Source: Bacteriovoracaceae bacterium (GTDB taxonomy: Bacteria; Bdellovibrionota; Bacteriovoracia; Bacteriovoracales; Bacteriovoracaceae). From it: DNA of 34,661 nt. A program made the translations under genes and the position numbers. The notes beneath the pieces were generated by a model, which was not told where the DNA came from, searched no databases, and saw only the letters and a program-made list of their open reading frames with translations. Positions within the stretch are counted from its first letter, which is position 1. Each line of letters begins with the position of its first letter. Positions 26,455-34,661 of the stretch are shown here, one piece after another. The stretch covers positions 1 to 34,661 of the forward strand of contig JAFMBV010000030.1 in assembly GCA_017858255.1 (NCBI GenBank), given 5' to 3'.

Positions 26455-28389
26455 ATGGATATAAGTGATTACAACAACAGATTAGCTCAGACCCGAAACC
26501 GCTACAGTGAAGCGTCTCAAGAGCTTAAAGATAATTACAACGATAAGGTCGAGCACCTTGAAAAGTTACACGCCAATAAAGTCAAAAACCAAAAAGATAA
26601 TTACCTGAATCAAAAAGATGAGATGGAAGTAGGGGCTCAAAAAAGACTTGAGCGCTATGACAATAATCTAAAGAAAGCTCTATCTGAGCGAACTGAGCGC
26701 TATAACAAAAATATTGAAGAGAAGCGTTCGGAATTTGATTCTAATCGTCAGAAACAAATGAATGATTATAATCAGAAACTCTCTTCTATTTCCCAATCAT
26801 TTGATACCGCCAATACTGAGAAAGATAAGCTCCATGCAATGTATAAAGACAATATGGTTGAGCGATATGAAGATGGTCTATCAAAGAGAGAGAAAGAGTT
26901 TAATGAAAAACTAGGTTCTCAACAAAAAACATCATCAGGTAAGCTAAATGAGTTCCGTGATCAACAAAGTCGTGAAAAAATCGAAATGATTACGGACCAC
27001 ACAAATCAAAAGAAACAATTAGTTCAAGACGCAAATATTTCTAGAAATAGTGCTAACAGTAGGCACCAACTTGATATGGAAAGATTGCGTGAAAATGCCA
27101 AGCAAAATGAAAGTACTTTAAGAAATAACGCTGAAAATGCTAATAGCGGACTAAGAAAAACGAAGAATGAAGAAAATGAAGCTCAACGGATTACGTTTGA
27201 GAAGTTGACGAATAAAATTCAGGACAGAAATACAGCTGAAATACAGCGCCTCAATAGACAAAATAAAACAGATAAGAGAGATCTTGAAAATACTTTTGGT
27301 CAAGATAGGATTCAAATTGAGCGGCGGACAAACGCATTATTGAACGAGGGAAGCCACAATAAGGTTGAAAACTCACGTAAGTCATTACAAGCTCAGCATG
27401 AAAGTCAAATTGGAAATCTCAAAAAATCAATTGAAGAAAATAATTATAATAACAACTTACTCAGTGAGAGACTTAGTCGCAGTCACTCTGATGAATTGAA
27501 AAAAATGGAAATCACGAGTGGTTCCAATCTTGAAAAGAAAAATGAAGAAATGAGAAAACTCCGCCAAGAAGAAGTAGGCGGGCTTCGTGAGCAGTTTGAA
27601 GGCTATCAAGAACTCATGGGAAAAAGAAATAGGCGCCTTGAGCAAGAGAAAGAAGAACAGTCTGTTACTTCTCGCCAAAAGTTAGTGAACACTGTTTCTA
27701 GGCAAAGAGAGGAGTTTGGTCGCTCCATTAATCATATAAATAATTCCAATCAAAGGGCGATGGCCGACGCTCGTGTCGAAATGTCAGAAGAGCAAACCAA
27801 GTTTATTGAAAACACCAAAAGAAATGTTCACAATGAAATGGCAGATCTTAAAAGTGACCTAAACGATGTTTTTTCTCGCAAAGAAGACAGCATGCAGAAA
27901 AAAATCGAAATGAGTGAAAAGAAAAAAGTAGCACTCGAAGAAAAGTATCAAAAGAAACTAGATGATCTTCAAAATAAATCGGCTAAAGAATTAGAGCAAT
28001 TAAAAGTTTTTGAAAATGAAAGACGGAAAGAGGATCGGCGAGCTGCTGAGAGACAGCTAGACCAACAACAAAGAGAATTTAAAAAGACGCTAATGTCTTT
28101 AAGAACAGAGTATGATCGCCGCCTTGATAGAACAAAGGCCAACAATGACCTTCATGTAGCAAAAATTACTGAGCGTTTTAATAATCAGATCTCTCGTGAG
28201 CGCCAAGAGGCCAATGCCCAAATGCAAAGAAGCACCAGCATGATGAATGCAAACTATAATCGTCTTGTTGATAAGACGAATATGGAAAAAGACTCCATGG
28301 TCAATCAATATGAGCTCAAGCTCAATAAGTTGCGCGAGGCCAATCGCGTCGCCAATATAGTTCAAAGCACGCGACCTAAAACCGTTTAA
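26455..28389 (+). CDS. large cytoplasmic coiled-coil (rod) protein
   Basis: The 644-residue chain is almost entirely Glu, Lys, Arg, Asn, Gln, Ser and Leu with long heptad-like runs (LKDNYNDKVEHLEKLHANK, LEEKYQKKLDDLQNKSAKE). It has no Trp or Cys, and the only proline is four residues from the end (TRPKTV). No signal peptide or membrane span is seen. AGGAG lies further from the ATG than usual (about 16 bp), so initiation may be modest. If largely helical it would form a rod up to roughly 95 nm long. It resembles filament or scaffold proteins in composition only; no homologous domain is recognised. It is monocistronic and precedes the pyruvate kinase gene. Confidence 0.88.
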   Translation: MDISDYNNRLAQTRNRYSEASQELKDNYNDKVEHLEKLHANKVKNQKDNYLNQKDEMEVGAQKRLERYDNNLKKALSERTERYNKNIEEKRSEFDSNRQKQMNDYNQKLSSISQSFDTANTEKDKLHAMYKDNMVERYEDGLSKREKEFNEKLGSQQKTSSGKLNEFRDQQSREKIEMITDHTNQKKQLVQDANISRNSANSRHQLDMERLRENAKQNESTLRNNAENANSGLRKTKNEENEAQRITFEKLTNKIQDRNTAEIQRLNRQNKTDKRDLENTFGQDRIQIERRTNALLNEGSHNKVENSRKSLQAQHESQIGNLKKSIEENNYNNNLLSERLSRSHSDELKKMEITSGSNLEKKNEEMRKLRQEEVGGLREQFEGYQELMGKRNRRLEQEKEEQSVTSRQKLVNTVSRQREEFGRSINHINNSNQRAMADARVEMSEEQTKFIENTKRNVHNEMADLKSDLNDVFSRKEDSMQKKIEMSEKKKVALEEKYQKKLDDLQNKSAKELEQLKVFENERRKEDRRAAERQLDQQQREFKKTLMSLRTEYDRRLDRTKANNDLHVAKITERFNNQISRERQEANAQMQRSTSMMNANYNRLVDKTNMEKDSMVNQYELKLNKLREANRVANIVQSTRPKTV

Positions 28390-28472: not shown

Positions 28473-30155
28473 ATGCGCAGGGCAAAGATTGTCTCCACCC
28501 TAGGACCAGCTTCTAATACCGTTGAAATGATATCGAAGATGATTAAAGCGGGTCTAAATATTGCCCGAGTTAATATGAGTCATGGTACCCATGAATCCCA
28601 TAAACAGCTCATCGCCAATATTCGTGAGGCCTCAAAGATTGTGGGTCAAGAGGTTGCCGTTCTTATTGATCTTCAAGGCCCCAAGATTAGAGTGGATAAA
28701 CTTGATGAACCTCTAGAGCTTAAGTCGAATAGTGAATGGGTTATTGGTACCAGTAAAGAAAAAGAAAAATACCCTGAATATAAAGACTGTTTTATACCAA
28801 CAGTTTATGAAAATCTTGTTAATGACTGTCATGATGGCGCTCGAATTCTTTTTGATGATGGCCTTATGGTTGCTCGTGCGATTACAAAAGATCGCGGAGT
28901 TTACAAGATTAAGGTTGAGGTTGGTGGAACACTCAAAAGTAATAAAGGAATTAATCTTCCTGATTGCGATGTTTCGGCGCCGGCATTTACAAAGAAAGAC
29001 AGAGAGGACTTGATTTTTGGCCTTCAAGAAAACTGTGATTATATCGCCCTATCTTTCGTAAGACGAAAGGAAGATGTTCAAGAAGTTAAATACCTCCTTC
29101 ATAGCTTAAAGAAAAACGTTCCAATCATCTCAAAGATTGAAAAGCCTCAGGCAGTCGATAATCTCGAAGAGATTATAGAAGTGACGGATGTGATAATGGT
29201 GGCCAGAGGGGATATGGGGGTTGAGCTTGGTAACCACTTGGTTCCTGCCGTTCAAAAGAAAATGATCAGAATGTGTAACGAGCGCCATGTTCCAGTGATT
29301 ACTGCAACTCAAATGCTTGAGACGATGACTGATAACCCAACACCCACTAGAGCAGAGGCCTCTGATGTCGCAAATGCTATTTGGGACGGTACAGATGCCG
29401 TAATGCTAAGTGGGGAAACGGCGGCAGGTAAGTATCCTGTAGAAACTATTGCAATGATGGACTCTATAATCCTTGAGGCCGAAAAAGAGCCCAAGGAGAG
29501 ACCTTTCTTACGCCATATGGATCTATCAAACGTTAATGCCTCAGTGATGGTCGCAGCTTCAATGATAGCGGAGAAAATTCATGCTAAAAGGATATTATCG
29601 GTAACTGAATCTGGACACTCTTGTTTAAAGATCTCTCAGTTTCGTCCTCGCACACCTGTCCTAGGAATTACCAATAATATAGGAACCGTTAGAAAACTTT
29701 CTCTTTTTTGGGGAGTGACGCCTTTTTATCTCGCCGACTACGATGAAGATAATTTTGATTTTCAAAAAGATATTATTGAAAAAGTAAAAACTGATTTAGA
29801 ACTCGTGAACGGAGATAAACTAGTCATTACGAGAGGGGACGGAAAGTTCTTTGCTCGTGGTTCCTCAAACTCTGTAAAAGTAGAAATCATTAAAGATCGA
29901 CCTAAAGTACCTGGTGGCCAGGAAGTTCTTAAGGAGGCCAGTGATAAGAAGAAGAAAATTCTTCTTGATACTTCCGTCTGCGCTTCTTGCCAAAACTGTG
30001 TGCATATTTGTCCTCATGACATATGGAAGGTCACGGATGACGAACTTTCTAATACTTATATTAATGAACCACGGATTAGTGAATGCACCATGGACTATGA
30101 ATGTATTCGCGTTTGTCCTACTGGTGCCATAGAAATTCTTCCCATGGATAATTAG
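28473..30155 (+). CDS. pyk: pyruvate kinase fused to a C-terminal ferredoxin-like domain
   Basis: This 560-residue protein starts at an ATG behind AAGGA. Residues 1 to about 485 are a standard pyruvate kinase (phosphoenolpyruvate + ADP to pyruvate + ATP): KIVSTLGPAS, ARVNMSHG, DLQGPKIRV, SKIEKPQAVDNL, VMVARGDMGVEL, TRAEASDVANA and MLSGETAAGKYPVE. After a Lys-rich linker (about 490-498) comes an extra ferredoxin-like module. Its first motif is Cys503-x2-Cys506-x2-Cys509-x3-Cys513-Pro. The second is Cys538-x2-Asp541-x2-Cys544-x3-Cys548-Pro, so the second cysteine of cluster II is replaced by Asp. This CxxDxxC arrangement is known from ferredoxins with an Asp-ligated or [3Fe-4S] cluster. It precedes queG by 6 bp. 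Confidence 0.95.
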   Translation: MRRAKIVSTLGPASNTVEMISKMIKAGLNIARVNMSHGTHESHKQLIANIREASKIVGQEVAVLIDLQGPKIRVDKLDEPLELKSNSEWVIGTSKEKEKYPEYKDCFIPTVYENLVNDCHDGARILFDDGLMVARAITKDRGVYKIKVEVGGTLKSNKGINLPDCDVSAPAFTKKDREDLIFGLQENCDYIALSFVRRKEDVQEVKYLLHSLKKNVPIISKIEKPQAVDNLEEIIEVTDVIMVARGDMGVELGNHLVPAVQKKMIRMCNERHVPVITATQMLETMTDNPTPTRAEASDVANAIWDGTDAVMLSGETAAGKYPVETIAMMDSIILEAEKEPKERPFLRHMDLSNVNASVMVAASMIAEKIHAKRILSVTESGHSCLKISQFRPRTPVLGITNNIGTVRKLSLFWGVTPFYLADYDEDNFDFQKDIIEKVKTDLELVNGDKLVITRGDGKFFARGSSNSVKVEIIKDRPKVPGGQEVLKEASDKKKKILLDTSVCASCQNCVHICPHDIWKVTDDELSNTYINEPRISECTMDYECIRVCPTGAIEILPMDN

Positions 30156-30161
30156 AAAGCT

Positions 30162-31160
30162 ATGCCTCTTTTTAAACCCCAATTACTAACCCATCATAAG
30201 GTCGTTGATTGGGGTTATACAGAAGAGCTTGAACCATACTCCTATGACAACCTCGAGGCTTGGGTTGAAAAGGGCGAGCATGGTAGTCTTGGCTATTTGG
30301 CCGATCATCGTATGCAGGTCCGAAGTTCTTTAAAAAATGTCTTTCCCGAGTGCGAGAGTACCTTGGTATTTCTCTTTAGTTACCATCAAGAAAAATTGGC
30401 CTTAGAAGAATTTTATAAAGGGCCTGATAGTCACGGGATTAAACTCGCCAGTTACGTTCTGGGCTTTGAGGGGAAAGACTATCATTTAAGAGTACGTGAA
30501 TCTTTGGAAGAACTAGCAACTAAGCTTAGCGAAGGTCATGATGATTTAAAGTGGCGCCTCAGTCTTGATATCCAGCCAGTTTTAGAAAGAGACTTGGCCC
30601 ATCGAGCAGGTCTTGGCTGGTTTGGTAAGAACTCAATGCTAATTTCTAAGGACAAGGGCTCTTTCTTTATTATTGGCTCTCTTCTTCTCAATAAGAAATT
30701 AGAAATTCCTATGAGGCCAATTGAAACTGATCATTGTGGCCAGTGCAGGGCCTGCGTTGACGCCTGTCCAACACAAGCAATTGATGAGGACACCCGGACT
30801 TTAACTGCCGAAAAATGTATATCAACCTGGACAATAGAACACTTTAAGGAAGGACCTGATGCACCTATTGGAATGGAGAAAGCAAGTGGCGAGGTGTTTG
30901 GTTGTGATATTTGTCAGGACGTCTGTCCATGGAATGATCGGCCTGTGCGCTTAGGTCTTGAAGCTCAAGATACTAAAATATTTGAAAAGAATAATTCGTT
31001 TTTAATTGAAGAAATTTTAAAGAAAAATCTCACTGAATTGAGTGGCGACTTACAAGAGGTTTCTAATAGGGGATTTGTTAAAAAATTTCTCCATACGCCT
31101 CTTGGGAGAACTGGGCGACGAGGTTTTTTAAAGAATCTTTATTTTTGGAAAAAGCCCTGA
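30162..31160 (+). CDS. queG: epoxyqueuosine reductase (QueG)
   Basis: This cobalamin- and Fe-S-dependent enzyme performs the last step of queuosine synthesis in tRNA, reducing epoxyqueuosine. At 332 residues it is slightly shorter than the usual 350-380. Motifs: SYVLGFEGKDYHLRVRESLE, LDIQPVLERDLAHRAGLGWFG with the family's catalytic aspartate and aromatic stretch, and the iron-sulfur region Cys192-x2-Cys195-x2-Cys198-x3-Cys202-Pro with a second FGCDICQDVCPWN (Cys248, Cys251, Cys255). It lies 6 bp after the pyruvate kinase fusion and is likely in the same operon. Its 3' end overlaps the convergent hydrolase gene by 22 bp. Confidence 0.95.
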   Translation: MPLFKPQLLTHHKVVDWGYTEELEPYSYDNLEAWVEKGEHGSLGYLADHRMQVRSSLKNVFPECESTLVFLFSYHQEKLALEEFYKGPDSHGIKLASYVLGFEGKDYHLRVRESLEELATKLSEGHDDLKWRLSLDIQPVLERDLAHRAGLGWFGKNSMLISKDKGSFFIIGSLLLNKKLEIPMRPIETDHCGQCRACVDACPTQAIDEDTRTLTAEKCISTWTIEHFKEGPDAPIGMEKASGEVFGCDICQDVCPWNDRPVRLGLEAQDTKIFEKNNSFLIEEILKKNLTELSGDLQEVSNRGFVKKFLHTPLGRTGRRGFLKNLYFWKKP

Positions 31161-31957
31161 TCTTTTAACCACTTCTTGATGTGTGGGGCCGCATTCTCTG
31201 GTAAGTGGTGGGCCAGCTTTGCAGGTTTTTCGAGAACGACATTATTACCAAGGTTCTCAAGTTGAGCTTTTAGTCTCTCTGTACCGTCCTTACCTACGAC
31301 CACGTCGTCCTCACCGGTAAGAAGATAAATATTCTGACTAGTAAGATCGAGAGATTCTTTTTCTTCCTTTATCCAAGGAAAAATTTTATCAGGACCAATG
31401 GCCTCGCTCACAAGTTGCGCGCGCACAGCAAGGGTCGACTTATAAAAAGGCGTATTAAAGATATGGGTGACTCCTTCAGGGGGCAGTCCGAAACCGACGG
31501 CAATGACTTGAGTTTGTTTAAAGTTTTGAAAGGCGGGAGAGTCACAGGCCTTAAGAGAGAGTAGGGCCCCTAAGCTATGACCACCGAGAATAAATTTGGT
31601 GGAGCAGTGGTCACTGTGAAGGCCCAGCTCGTCTAAAAGGAGCTCCTCTAAGATCTTGAGACCACTTTCAAACATGAGGGTAGCGTTTCTCTGAAAGGCC
31701 TCAAGACTTGAAACTTCTGTGAAGCCTCCAAGGTAATGACCAGGCAAGTCAAAAAGTAGCGAGGGGATGCCTTCTTCTGCTAAGCGCAATGACCAGTTAA
31801 AAATACTGCCTTTGTGGCTAGTAAAGCCATGAGTGAATACACTCAGTGCTGGAGCTACTTTTGAACTAACGTCAGGTAGAAAACAAAAAGCATTTGTTGA
31901 GACAATAGTTTTTTCATCTTGAAAGGGAACAGCTGTTTTTAGAATCTTTACCGGCAT
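31139..31957 (-). CDS. alpha/beta hydrolase (serine esterase-like)
   Basis: This 272-residue cytoplasmic protein shows the nucleophile elbow GGHSLGA with Ser128, an oxyanion-type FTHGF (43-44), a probable acid in LLTGEDDVVVGKDG and a late histidine in KLAHHLPENA, so a complete Ser-Asp-His triad is plausible. FDLPGHYLGG is typical of the fold. Hydrolase specificity is not deducible. It overlaps queG tail to tail by 22 bp and reads away from the tRNA-Phe gene. Confidence 0.88.
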   Translation of the reverse strand: MPVKILKTAVPFQDEKTIVSTNAFCFLPDVSSKVAPALSVFTHGFTSHKGSIFNWSLRLAEEGIPSLLFDLPGHYLGGFTEVSSLEAFQRNATLMFESGLKILEELLLDELGLHSDHCSTKFILGGHSLGALLSLKACDSPAFQNFKQTQVIAVGFGLPPEGVTHIFNTPFYKSTLAVRAQLVSEAIGPDKIFPWIKEEKESLDLTSQNIYLLTGEDDVVVGKDGTERLKAQLENLGNNVVLEKPAKLAHHLPENAAPHIKKWLKDQGFFQK

Positions 31958-32057: not shown

Positions 32058-32133
32058 GCCCCGATAGCTCAGTTGGTAGAGCAAGGGACTGAAAATCCCT
32101 GTGTCCGTGGTTCGAATCCGCGTCGGGGCACCA
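32058..32133 (+). tRNA. tRNA-Phe(GAA) with encoded CCA
   Basis: The 76-nt cloverleaf is complete: acceptor GCCCCGA/TCGGGGC, D-stem GCTC/GAGC, anticodon stem AGGGA/TCCCT with loop CTGAAAA (anticodon GAA), T-arm with TTCGAATC loop, then ACCA. All stems pair. Its 3' 21 bases are duplicated 2259 bp downstream, marking it as an integration site; the gene itself stays intact on the left side. Confidence 0.97.
32113..32133 (+). repeat. attL-type core: 3' end of tRNA-Phe
   Basis: The T-loop through CCA (21 bp) recurs exactly at 34372-34392 in the same orientation. Bases on both sides of the repeat differ between the copies. The match begins inside the T-arm, the usual crossover segment of tRNA-targeting tyrosine integrases. 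Confidence 0.85.
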
Positions 32134-32148
32134 TTCTTTTAAAGTTAA

Positions 32149-32178
32149 AAAGCCCAGTTTAACCCACTGGGCTTTTTT
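32149..32178 (+). terminator. intrinsic terminator after tRNA-Phe
   Basis: AGCCCAGT (32151-32158) and ACTGGGCT (32166-32173) enclose a 7-nt loop and are followed by T6; flanking A/T runs extend the pairing. It lies on the island side of the att core. Confidence 0.9.
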
Positions 32179-32222
32179 TATTTCAGCTACTTATATTTTT
32201 ACCCAAATTCGTTTGTCTTTAG

Positions 32223-32246
32223 TTTTTACGTGCGCCTTGCGTGCGC
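32223..32246 (+). repeat. TTTTTACGTGCGCC-N4-GTGCGC motif, left copy
   Basis: The 14-base TTTTTACGTGCGCC is followed by a 4-base spacer and GTGCGC. The two GTGCGC cores begin 11 bp apart, about one helical turn. The same layout occurs at 34461-34484. It lies about 90 bp inside the left att core, where integrase arm-type or accessory sites are found. Confidence 0.7.
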
Positions 32247-32306
32247 TTAATTATCTGTAAAAAAACGTTATTCACTACAACTAGATTGAGATTAGAAGAC
32301 CTATAT

Positions 32307-33206
32307 TTAGCTAGCCTTATTAATCCCATCTCCACTTTCTAAAGGAGTAGCATCAGAAATGTCCTCCGAACTTAAAGTAGCGTTATCTTGCTCTTCTAAA
32401 TCCTCTGATTCGCAAGGGGACATATTTTTAGCTGACTTATCTTTTGTCTTTTTTCGACTAGGTTTACTGTTTATTTTTCGAAGAAGACTCTTGTTTAGAT
32501 CTTCCACTTCAGCTTTTATAATCTGATTTTCAATAATGTCTTTAAGCTGCTCTGGAAGAACTTTGACACCATGAATGCTTGTTACTTCCTTGGTGATACT
32601 TTTAATGATTTTATCGCTCAGTATTACTGCAACAATATCTTCGACCTTCGTAGCATTTGCTACTTTATGCACATCTCTCCAGTCACCATTTAAATACGAG
32701 TTCTTAGAGAAAAGATAAAACTCTTCAGCAAGGTTATCCGTATTTGATTCAACACCAAAGTTTACTTCGTGTATGAGGTTTGCATCTGAGTTACGTTTTG
32801 TATTTTTTACGCTGTAAAGTTGCCACCGTACAGTATTCGTTAGGACAAAAAAATCGATTCCATTAGTGAGGCAATATTGTAATGTTTGATTTACATGAGA
32901 TTGGCTTAGAGAAACATGTGCTGCTTTTGCTTCAATCACAAAATCATATTGGTCTTTTTTCTTTGAGTATGGGCTATCGGAAACCTTGATGACGTAATCT
33001 AATCGTCCATTTTTCTCTCGGTGCTCTGTCTTAACTTCGTTGTACTTGTCATAACCCAAGACATCAGCCAATACATCATTAATGATGATTCTTGCATCAT
33101 CTTCTGAGCTTGCTTTTCCTTTAGACTGTAAGTTCTTTATTACAGTTGTAAACTTTTTTAGCTCTGTAGAAATTGAACGTTTAAACTTGGCTGGTACTTT
33201 GTACAT
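32307..33206 (-). CDS. stand-alone HsdR-N-like PD-(D/E)XK nuclease-domain protein
   Basis: This 299-residue protein starts at an ATG behind AAAAGGGG. Residues of about 35-135 match the N-terminal nuclease domain of type I restriction R subunits: GRLDYVI with Asp70, then YDFVIEAKA with Glu92 and Lys94 (the D...ExK core), followed by HVNQTLQYC and FFVLTNTVRWQLY. Full HsdR proteins continue with a helicase motor of about 700 residues, absent here. The C-terminal 70 residues are low-complexity, first basic (KPSRKKTKDKSAK), then acidic (ESEDLEEQDN). No methylase or specificity gene is adjacent. A role in defence or in element maintenance is inferred only from domain and context. Confidence 0.8.
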   Translation of the reverse strand: MYKVPAKFKRSISTELKKFTTVIKNLQSKGKASSEDDARIIINDVLADVLGYDKYNEVKTEHREKNGRLDYVIKVSDSPYSKKKDQYDFVIEAKAAHVSLSQSHVNQTLQYCLTNGIDFFVLTNTVRWQLYSVKNTKRNSDANLIHEVNFGVESNTDNLAEEFYLFSKNSYLNGDWRDVHKVANATKVEDIVAVILSDKIIKSITKEVTSIHGVKVLPEQLKDIIENQIIKAEVEDLNKSLLRKINSKPSRKKTKDKSAKNMSPCESEDLEEQDNATLSSEDISDATPLESGDGINKAS

Positions 33207-33510
33207 TGAAACCCCTTTTATTAGATGACATACGTTTCGGTTAATTACTCTGAATATTTGAGTTTGAATTTGGCTAATTATTTAAACTGAGTGATGTTTT
33301 TGCGTGACAGATTTGTCGCCTTTGTTTCGTTTTTATCACTAGTTAAGCTAACCTGAATGATTGAGGGTTCTTGTCCCTTTTGATTAGTCTTGGGTGTTTG
33401 TTCTGCGATTAAAAAATAGTGATTAGTTTTGCCAAGTCGTTAAATTTTAAAAAGGAAGTTGCCGATATCTTAGTTATATTAAAGCGATTAAATTAAAATA
33501 AGGGTGTTTC
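33207..33510 (+). other. divergent intergenic region of the island
   Basis: These 304 AT-rich bases lie between the two divergent island genes and must hold both promoters. I see no frame of note, no strong sigma70 hexamer pair and no clear operator. The lipoprotein start at 33511 is preceded by AAGGGTG. Confidence 0.5.
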
Positions 33511-34212
33511 TTGAAACGATCTAAGTATTTTTTAATTTTTCTATTGGTGTCATGCTCTAGTGGTTCGGTTAATCTTACTAGTGAAGCAATAGCACTAAAA
33601 GAGTTTAAAAACCCGTTGTCTAAATATCTCTGTAAAAAAGGAGACACTCTTTCTTATTCGAAGGCTTCATCCGGTCTCTTCGGTAAAACTTTATCTAGTA
33701 ATGCAATTTTGAATAAAATAGCTGCTCAAAAGGGAGTTAATTATTACAGTAAGGATGACATAAAATCGACTATCTCTTACGGAAAAGAGAGTGTTGAGGC
33801 GTTTGGATTTTCTTGTAAGTTTAAGGATGTTCCCCTTAATCCTGAGGCTATCGATGTAAATATTTTAAAAAGCGATCATGTAGCTGTAAACTGTGAAAGG
33901 ATTGGTGAGTTTTTTAGTAGTCTTTATCATGATGACGAAAAAATCGTATTGAATAATTTAAAAAACATTACACATGAAAGGGGCGGTATTATTGGTAATA
34001 TTGAACCCACTAGAAAAGCTGGTACAAAAATAGGCGTTTATAAATGTTCTCCTAAACAGATCGCAAAGGTCAGGATTGATATGAGAAGGGAGTCTCGAGA
34101 AGAGGCTCAAATAAGACAAAATAAATTAAGAAATTACATCCTTGATGAACAAAACAGGACCTTGAAGGGTGCCTATGGATTGATGCAGTTTTATATACTT
34201 AATGAACTGTAG
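33511..34212 (+). CDS. island lipoprotein, function unknown
   Basis: This 233-residue protein uses a TTG start behind AAGGGTG. The signal (LKRSKYFLIFLLVSC) ends in a lipobox, Cys15. The mature part has four spaced cysteines (YLCKKGD, FSCKFKD, VNCERIG, YKCSPKQ), suggesting two disulfides, and a long charged C-terminal helix (RRESREEAQIRQNKLRNYIL). Codon use is AT-rich. I do not recognise the family. It is divergent from the HsdR-N-like gene and both lie between the att repeats, so it is cargo of the same element. Membrane attachment follows from the lipobox; function is open. Confidence 0.82.
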   Translation: MKRSKYFLIFLLVSCSSGSVNLTSEAIALKEFKNPLSKYLCKKGDTLSYSKASSGLFGKTLSSNAILNKIAAQKGVNYYSKDDIKSTISYGKESVEAFGFSCKFKDVPLNPEAIDVNILKSDHVAVNCERIGEFFSSLYHDDEKIVLNNLKNITHERGGIIGNIEPTRKAGTKIGVYKCSPKQIAKVRIDMRRESREEAQIRQNKLRNYILDEQNRTLKGAYGLMQFYILNEL

Positions 34213-34371
34213 CCCCATCTTATAAATTTTCTTTCATAATTCGAGTTCATCTTTATCACATATTACCCGAACGATTTTATTAGGAGAGTTTCCTTGCTCT
34301 CCCTCTTTATTTCCGTCCCAGTTAAATCGATTTCGCATTTGAAACATATAAACGGAAGCATTCTTGAGTCA

Positions 34372-34392
34372 CGAATCCGCGTCGGGGCACCA
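34372..34392 (+). repeat. attR-type core: displaced copy of the tRNA-Phe 3' end
   Basis: Identical over 21 bases, same strand, to 32113-32133. The upstream tRNA body is absent here, as expected for the right junction of an element that restored the tRNA on its left side. Confidence 0.85.
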
Positions 34393-34460
34393 CCTCTTCT
34401 TATTCTCCTTCCCCGTAATTTCAACATTATGACTAACTTTCAACGACTGAGCAGTGTTAT

Positions 34461-34484
34461 TTTTTACGTGCGCCATCTGTGCGC
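34461..34484 (+). repeat. TTTTTACGTGCGCC-N4-GTGCGC motif, right copy
   Basis: Same 14 + 4 + 6 layout as at 32223-32246 with a different 4-base spacer (ATCT instead of TTGC). It lies 68 bp after the right att core, while the left copy lies 89 bp after the left core. It sits outside the bounded element, hinting at a second related element. Confidence 0.7.
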
Positions 34485-34661
34485 CAAAAATTACATTGAG
34501 AGACTCACTTCCTGTTTAGGATGAGTATGTGACAGATCCATTTATATCACAACAATTTCATAGTCCTGAAATATAGTGCGGGTTGAGTCCACACCATAAT
34601 ATCAAGACTAATAAATGCAGAGCTAAGGCAATCTAGACCCTTATATACTCCGGACACATTT

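Follow-up and report, generated by a model that had tools for sequence, protein, structure and literature searches.

A two-gene unit behind tRNA-Phe in a Bacteriovoracaceae bacterium, probably part of a tRNA-anchored gene-cassette array

A tRNA-Phe gene whose 3' end is repeated a short distance downstream raises the question of what kind of element lies between the two copies. We addressed this question in the window, by which we mean the whole stretch of DNA analysed, 34,661 nucleotides that make up the entire contig C164 of a 4.08-Mb genome in 207 contigs. The tRNA-Phe (GAA) gene, identified with ARAGORN and Rfam, occupies positions 32058 to 32133 on the plus strand. Its last 21 bp (32113-32133) recur on the same strand at 34372-34392, so that, as the preliminary description had stated, an exact direct repeat, CGAATCCGCGTCGGGGCACCA, is found at a spacing of 2259 bp. 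Even the 11-bp core of this repeat, which the window contains two times, was absent from all of 100 dinucleotide shuffles. Only two genes lie between the repeats, at 32307-33206 (minus strand) and 33511-34212 (plus strand), and neither the open reading frame list nor a domain search placed an integrase or an integrase remnant within the 2.26-kb unit; on both points the preliminary description was correct. The unit has a GC content of 34.6%, below that of every equal stretch in the remainder of the contig (minimum, 36.2%).

Genes and boundaries of the window unit

The minus-strand gene encodes a solitary PD-(D/E)XK protein of 299 aa that resembles the N-terminal region of HsdR and matches HSDR_N_2 (PF13588; E = 6e-9) in the domain search. 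Its nuclease motif (D70, E92, and K94) is invariant in 10 homologues, and the top structural match of its predicted model (mean pLDDT, 76) is a weak one to HsdR of EcoR124I. No homologues were returned by a pattern scan over genome contigs. A homology search detected them in 11 other family genomes, none of which is a congener; these homologues are scattered and lie in mixed genomic contexts, one of them adjoining an integrase. This patchy distribution and the variety of contexts suggest that the nuclease-like gene was acquired by transfer. The plus-strand gene encodes a predicted lipoprotein of 233 aa that belongs to no known family; it carries an N-terminal LVSC lipobox-like motif and had no matches in Pfam, NCBIfam, or PADLOC.

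Directly behind the tRNA gene, the unit begins with a left arm (32134-32298, plus strand), within which an intrinsic terminator with a 12-pair stem and a T run (32147-32177, plus strand) adjoins tRNA-Phe. A second repeat pair, overlooked in the preliminary description, is 28 bp long and 86% identical and places one copy of a GTGCGC-containing arm motif 3' of each 21-bp repeat, the first (TTTACGTGCGCC-N4-GTGCGC) at 32219-32246 and the second at 34457-34484, both on the plus strand. These are the only two exact copies of the arm motif in the genome, and the position of the second suggests that another unit starts there. GTGCGC arms were also considered as a general feature of the arrays described below and rejected, the matches amounting to this genome's two copies and one weak match elsewhere. 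The contig stops 269 bp beyond the right repeat, inside the terminal repeat of an insertion sequence (IS; 34629-34661, plus strand), and the right-hand chromosomal flank therefore falls outside the visible sequence, a point likewise absent from the preliminary description; the assembly is broken here because of the IS. The 33-bp IS terminal repeat is found at several contig ends in this genome and is present in genome G026 as well. Joining C164 to a neighbor through the IS end was tried and rejected: contigs C169, C117, C29, and C176 all start with the identical repeat, and no target duplication matched the window flank.

The tRNA-Phe locus and cassette arrays in relatives

On its left side, the window unit is bordered by genes that recur at the tRNA-Phe locus throughout the family. 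A gene at 31139-31957 (minus strand), which from its sequence we take to encode an alpha/beta hydrolase-like protein, is about 100 bp away from the tRNA; at 41 family loci, the window included, the hydrolase gene lies 84 to 293 bp upstream of tRNA-Phe. It is mostly preceded by a gene that we likewise read as queG-like (30162-31160, plus strand, in the window), which tblastn located in the same place in most relatives. Farther left, the window holds a pyruvate-kinase-like gene with a ferredoxin-like C-terminal extension (28473-30155) and, upstream of it, a gene for a strongly charged, apparently coiled-coil protein of 644 aa (26455-28389). The 3' side of tRNA-Phe, by comparison, differed in every congener examined. 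In G001, a member of the same genus, an integrase with an in-frame stop and a transposase follow the tRNA; cassettes follow it in G002 and G005; and in G006 no repeat copy was found within 15 kb. Since the left flank is kept while the right side varies, the tRNA-Phe locus is an integration hotspot. Other cargo is thus present at this tRNA in relatives and gene content is not fixed, and the orthologous left flank with its variable right side bears out that part of the preliminary description that proposed an element without integrase at the 3' end of tRNA-Phe. No pair of strains with an empty and a filled site was seen among the relatives compared.

Tyrosine integrases directly adjoin tRNA-Phe in four relatives (G001, G093, G059, and G102). 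In G093, the integrase frame at tRNA-Phe is uninterrupted (locus L110, contig C52), and a two-site cassette array lies on another contig (L160, C93), which makes G093 a promising source of the recombinase. The first units of G018, G019, G011, and G110 are short and contain antisense tRNA-Phe fragments corresponding to the anticodon or T-arm, and a first unit at L030:1770-2146 contains a long antisense tRNA-like stretch.

In many relatives, repeated tRNA-end-like sites divide the region behind tRNA-Phe into tandem cassettes, with up to five units per array; where site and tRNA share a contig, the sites lie downstream on the tRNA strand. For example, G144 has five sites and G087 four, and further arrays are found at tRNA-Phe in G021 and G095. 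The intervals measure 98 bp at the shortest and 6.2 kb at the longest (median, 1.1 kb). Of 89 genes, 70 are on the tRNA strand, pointing away from the tRNA. In G120 (L156), G020 (L157), G134 (L158), G076 (L162), G031 (L166), and G025 (L167), the anchor is instead tRNA-Leu, which has the same 3' end, GCACCA; the cassette system is therefore wider than tRNA-Phe. Cargo families include GFA, glyoxalase, GrpB, ORF6N, cupin, and SnoaL, together with AHSA1, DUF1330, PemK, MarR, MerR, and DNA-alkylation-repair proteins, a list that in our reading resembles the contents of integron cassettes. Between G002 and G021, which represent two genera, a 533-bp GFA cassette shows homology over bases 1 to 532 and occupies different array positions; another unit takes first place after tRNA-Phe in G077 and third place in G147. 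Homology across most of a unit's length was seen for only three pairs. No array contains a tyrosine recombinase open reading frame, and the only Rfam RNA families detected in arrays were tRNAs. We also observed a 58-bp left arm, composed of a CCCTTGTTTTTACAAGGG terminator and ATGCCCTAAAATGAACTCTCGAACC, at G002:C17, G002:C33 (4880), G021 (1410), G019 (2360), G011 (5469), and G088 (13688). It spans five or six genera, is mostly 82 to 98% identical across cassettes, several of them with different genes, and may represent a second conserved cassette end.

The site at the cassette ends comprises about 41 conserved bp, with the consensus TCAAGTATTGCAGTTCGATAATCGTCCACTTCGGGGCACCA derived from 80 aligned sites. 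It resembles the T-arm and acceptor end of a tRNA, with a gap between GTTCGA and GGGGCACC that is 5 nt longer than in tRNA-Phe. A strict pattern matched 16 times, in 14 of the 115 family genomes searched, and a looser one 63 times, in 37 of 129 (20 of 48 genera); the reversed control had no match in either case. Among 84,980 species, the exact strict site occurred only in Bdellovibrionota, in nine stretches, several of them named Bacteriovoracaceae. In the first set of sites, about 28 lay downstream in forward orientation versus 1 in reverse. With regard to the exact crossover point, site and anchor tRNA have at least the last six bases, GCACCA, in common at all but 8 of 53 sites, and positions -11 and -10 of the site follow each array's own tRNA. 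Two folded structures were considered and rejected: an attC-like junction, for which mean pairing of the site with the 120 bp after it was 6.0, compared with 5.5 in shuffles, and a hairpin inside the 41-bp site, for which 77 sites gave no covariation. A terminator stands 3' of 44 of the 80 sites (7 expected) and 3' of 39 of 47 tRNA-Phe genes. The stop codons of the shortest cassettes lie about 30 bp or less from the site, which leaves scant space for a long lambda-type arm on that side.

Origin and movement of the window unit

The window unit is connected to these arrays by its left arm. The 165 bp that follow tRNA-Phe in the window share 91% identity with C144:8261-8425 of the same genome and 88% with G002:C33:5401-5565. 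In both of these places the arm lies directly 3' of a 41-bp site, and the cassette behind it contains a gene for a 593-aa protein. This genome has 41-bp sites at C144:8271 and on C48, the latter followed by an arm similar to one in G076. The ends of C144 and C48 overlap by 55 bp, and C69 has the same 55 bp; C164, C144, and C48 are unjoined in the assembly, and both the right side of the window unit and the link of C144 and C48 to it are based on homology. The shared left arm and the sites on C144 and C48 indicate that a cassette array is present in the genome and that the window unit makes use of a left arm from this array. We therefore think it probable that the window unit is the tRNA-proximal unit of a gene-cassette array anchored at tRNA-Phe, a hotspot in Bacteriovoracaceae. 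On this reading, the preliminary description overlooked a larger system of cassette arrays, of which the unit forms one end.

At its right end, the unit has 21 bp copied from the tRNA end, such as a conventional tRNA island leaves, as opposed to a 41-bp site. The unit might accordingly be a conventional tRNA-Phe island that was inserted by a lambda-type integrase resembling the G001 enzyme and has since lost the integrase, the arrays being an independent system located at this tRNA gene. The integrase-bearing islands at tRNA-Phe in the four relatives named above fit such a history, as do the repeated GTGCGC motifs, which look like integrase arm sites, and the arrays of G005, G021, G019, G011, and G088, in which the first unit ends in a tRNA-type copy and 41-bp sites appear only afterwards. 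Two observations speak against it: the 165-bp left arm is common to cassettes following 41-bp sites here and in G002, and the 2.26 kb retain no integrase remnant. We regard this explanation as unlikely. First units with tRNA-copy ends would reflect either a conventional tRNA-Phe integrase acting atop the array or one enzyme that produces both types of end.

It is far less probable that the right copy arose by chance, or through local duplication of the tRNA end long ago, and is immobile. The shared stretch is only 21 bp long, which would suit such an origin, but the 55 bp preceding the right repeat are 29% identical to tRNA-Phe. Sequence 5' of the right copy is thus unrelated to the tRNA, and the tandem tRNA duplication that the preliminary description had named as an alternative source is nowhere visible; moreover, in many relatives this locus contains repeated sites that resemble the tRNA end, a family-wide pattern that contradicts a local accident. 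Least probable of all is the phage satellite or anti-phage defence island that the preliminary description had in mind, a character suited to a small unit without integrase in which one gene has an intact, conserved PD-(D/E)XK nuclease motif but opposed by the lack of any phage-like gene among the two, of any PADLOC match, and of any match in IMG/VR for three strict site patterns, as well as by the mixed genomic contexts of the nuclease homologues.

Under the cassette-array explanation, small units, often with one or two genes, would be inserted behind the tRNA by site-specific recombination at its 3' end. Most units carry the 41-bp tRNA-like site on the right, and many have a terminator on the left, which would presumably replace the tRNA's own terminator upon insertion. 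From the arrangement of sites and units, we infer that units are both excised and integrated, and that the window unit moves like the 41-bp-site cassettes despite the tRNA copy at its right end. Since a recombinase gene is absent from all units, the enzyme must be supplied in trans. This enzyme would probably be of the tyrosine type, the best candidates being the tyrosine integrases of relatives at the tRNA-Phe site or a conserved Xer-like enzyme; a serine recombinase is possible. The tRNA-Phe integrases of the four relatives make a helper of the same specificity, as suggested in the preliminary description, plausible, but no such helper was recognised in this genome, where the closest homologue has just 33% identity and is encoded on another contig. 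Of this genome's 13 tyrosine recombinase matches, 10 were scanned, and none of these reached the IntI, XerC, or XerD cut-offs; for IntI (TIGR02249, cut-off of 265 bits), the best score among the 10 was 69 bits.

Comparison with known systems

More broadly, and with confidence a little short of even, we propose that Bacteriovoracaceae possess an integron-like gene-capture platform of separate origin, defined by an acquisition site at tRNA-Phe or tRNA-Leu, a 41-bp cassette site, and an unlinked recombinase that would insert and reshuffle single-gene cassettes, each bringing the tRNA a new terminator. If so, this would be a second, tRNA-based form of cassette capture, and such capture would have evolved more than once. 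It would also help to explain gene gain by predatory bacteria and would provide a well-defined site for finding a new recombinase. In the open-access literature, which was the scope of our search as distinct from subscription papers and preprints, no earlier description of tRNA-anchored cassette arrays was found.

Integrons are the textbook cassette-capture system, and CALINs are clusters of attC sites without an integron integrase. Like both, the arrays described here consist of tandem units, most with a single gene, whose 3' ends carry a recombination site; they further resemble integrons in the common orientation of their genes and in their cargo, and CALINs in having no integrase. Unlike integrons, which are anchored at attI, they are anchored at tRNA-Phe or tRNA-Leu. 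Their site is linear, 41 bp long, and tRNA-like, without the conserved hairpin of attC, and many of their units are separated by terminators. In addition, intI was found neither in the 10 of 13 matches scanned in this genome nor in any array. With tRNA-targeted islands that encode a tyrosine integrase, the arrays share the use of a tRNA 3' end and the direct repeat left there, and the same tRNA-Phe holds such islands in relatives; in contrast to those islands, cassette units can be shorter than 600 bp, have no integrase, and often place their stop codons about 30 bp or less from the site. CIMEs and the accretion of integrative elements have been described in Streptococcus (cf. PMC5704250). CIMEs, too, are att-flanked tandem units without an integrase that are thought to be moved in trans. 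However, their origin lies in integrative conjugative elements that share att sites, whereas the arrays comprise dozens of unrelated units of one to a few genes that carry one 41-bp end sequence across genera.
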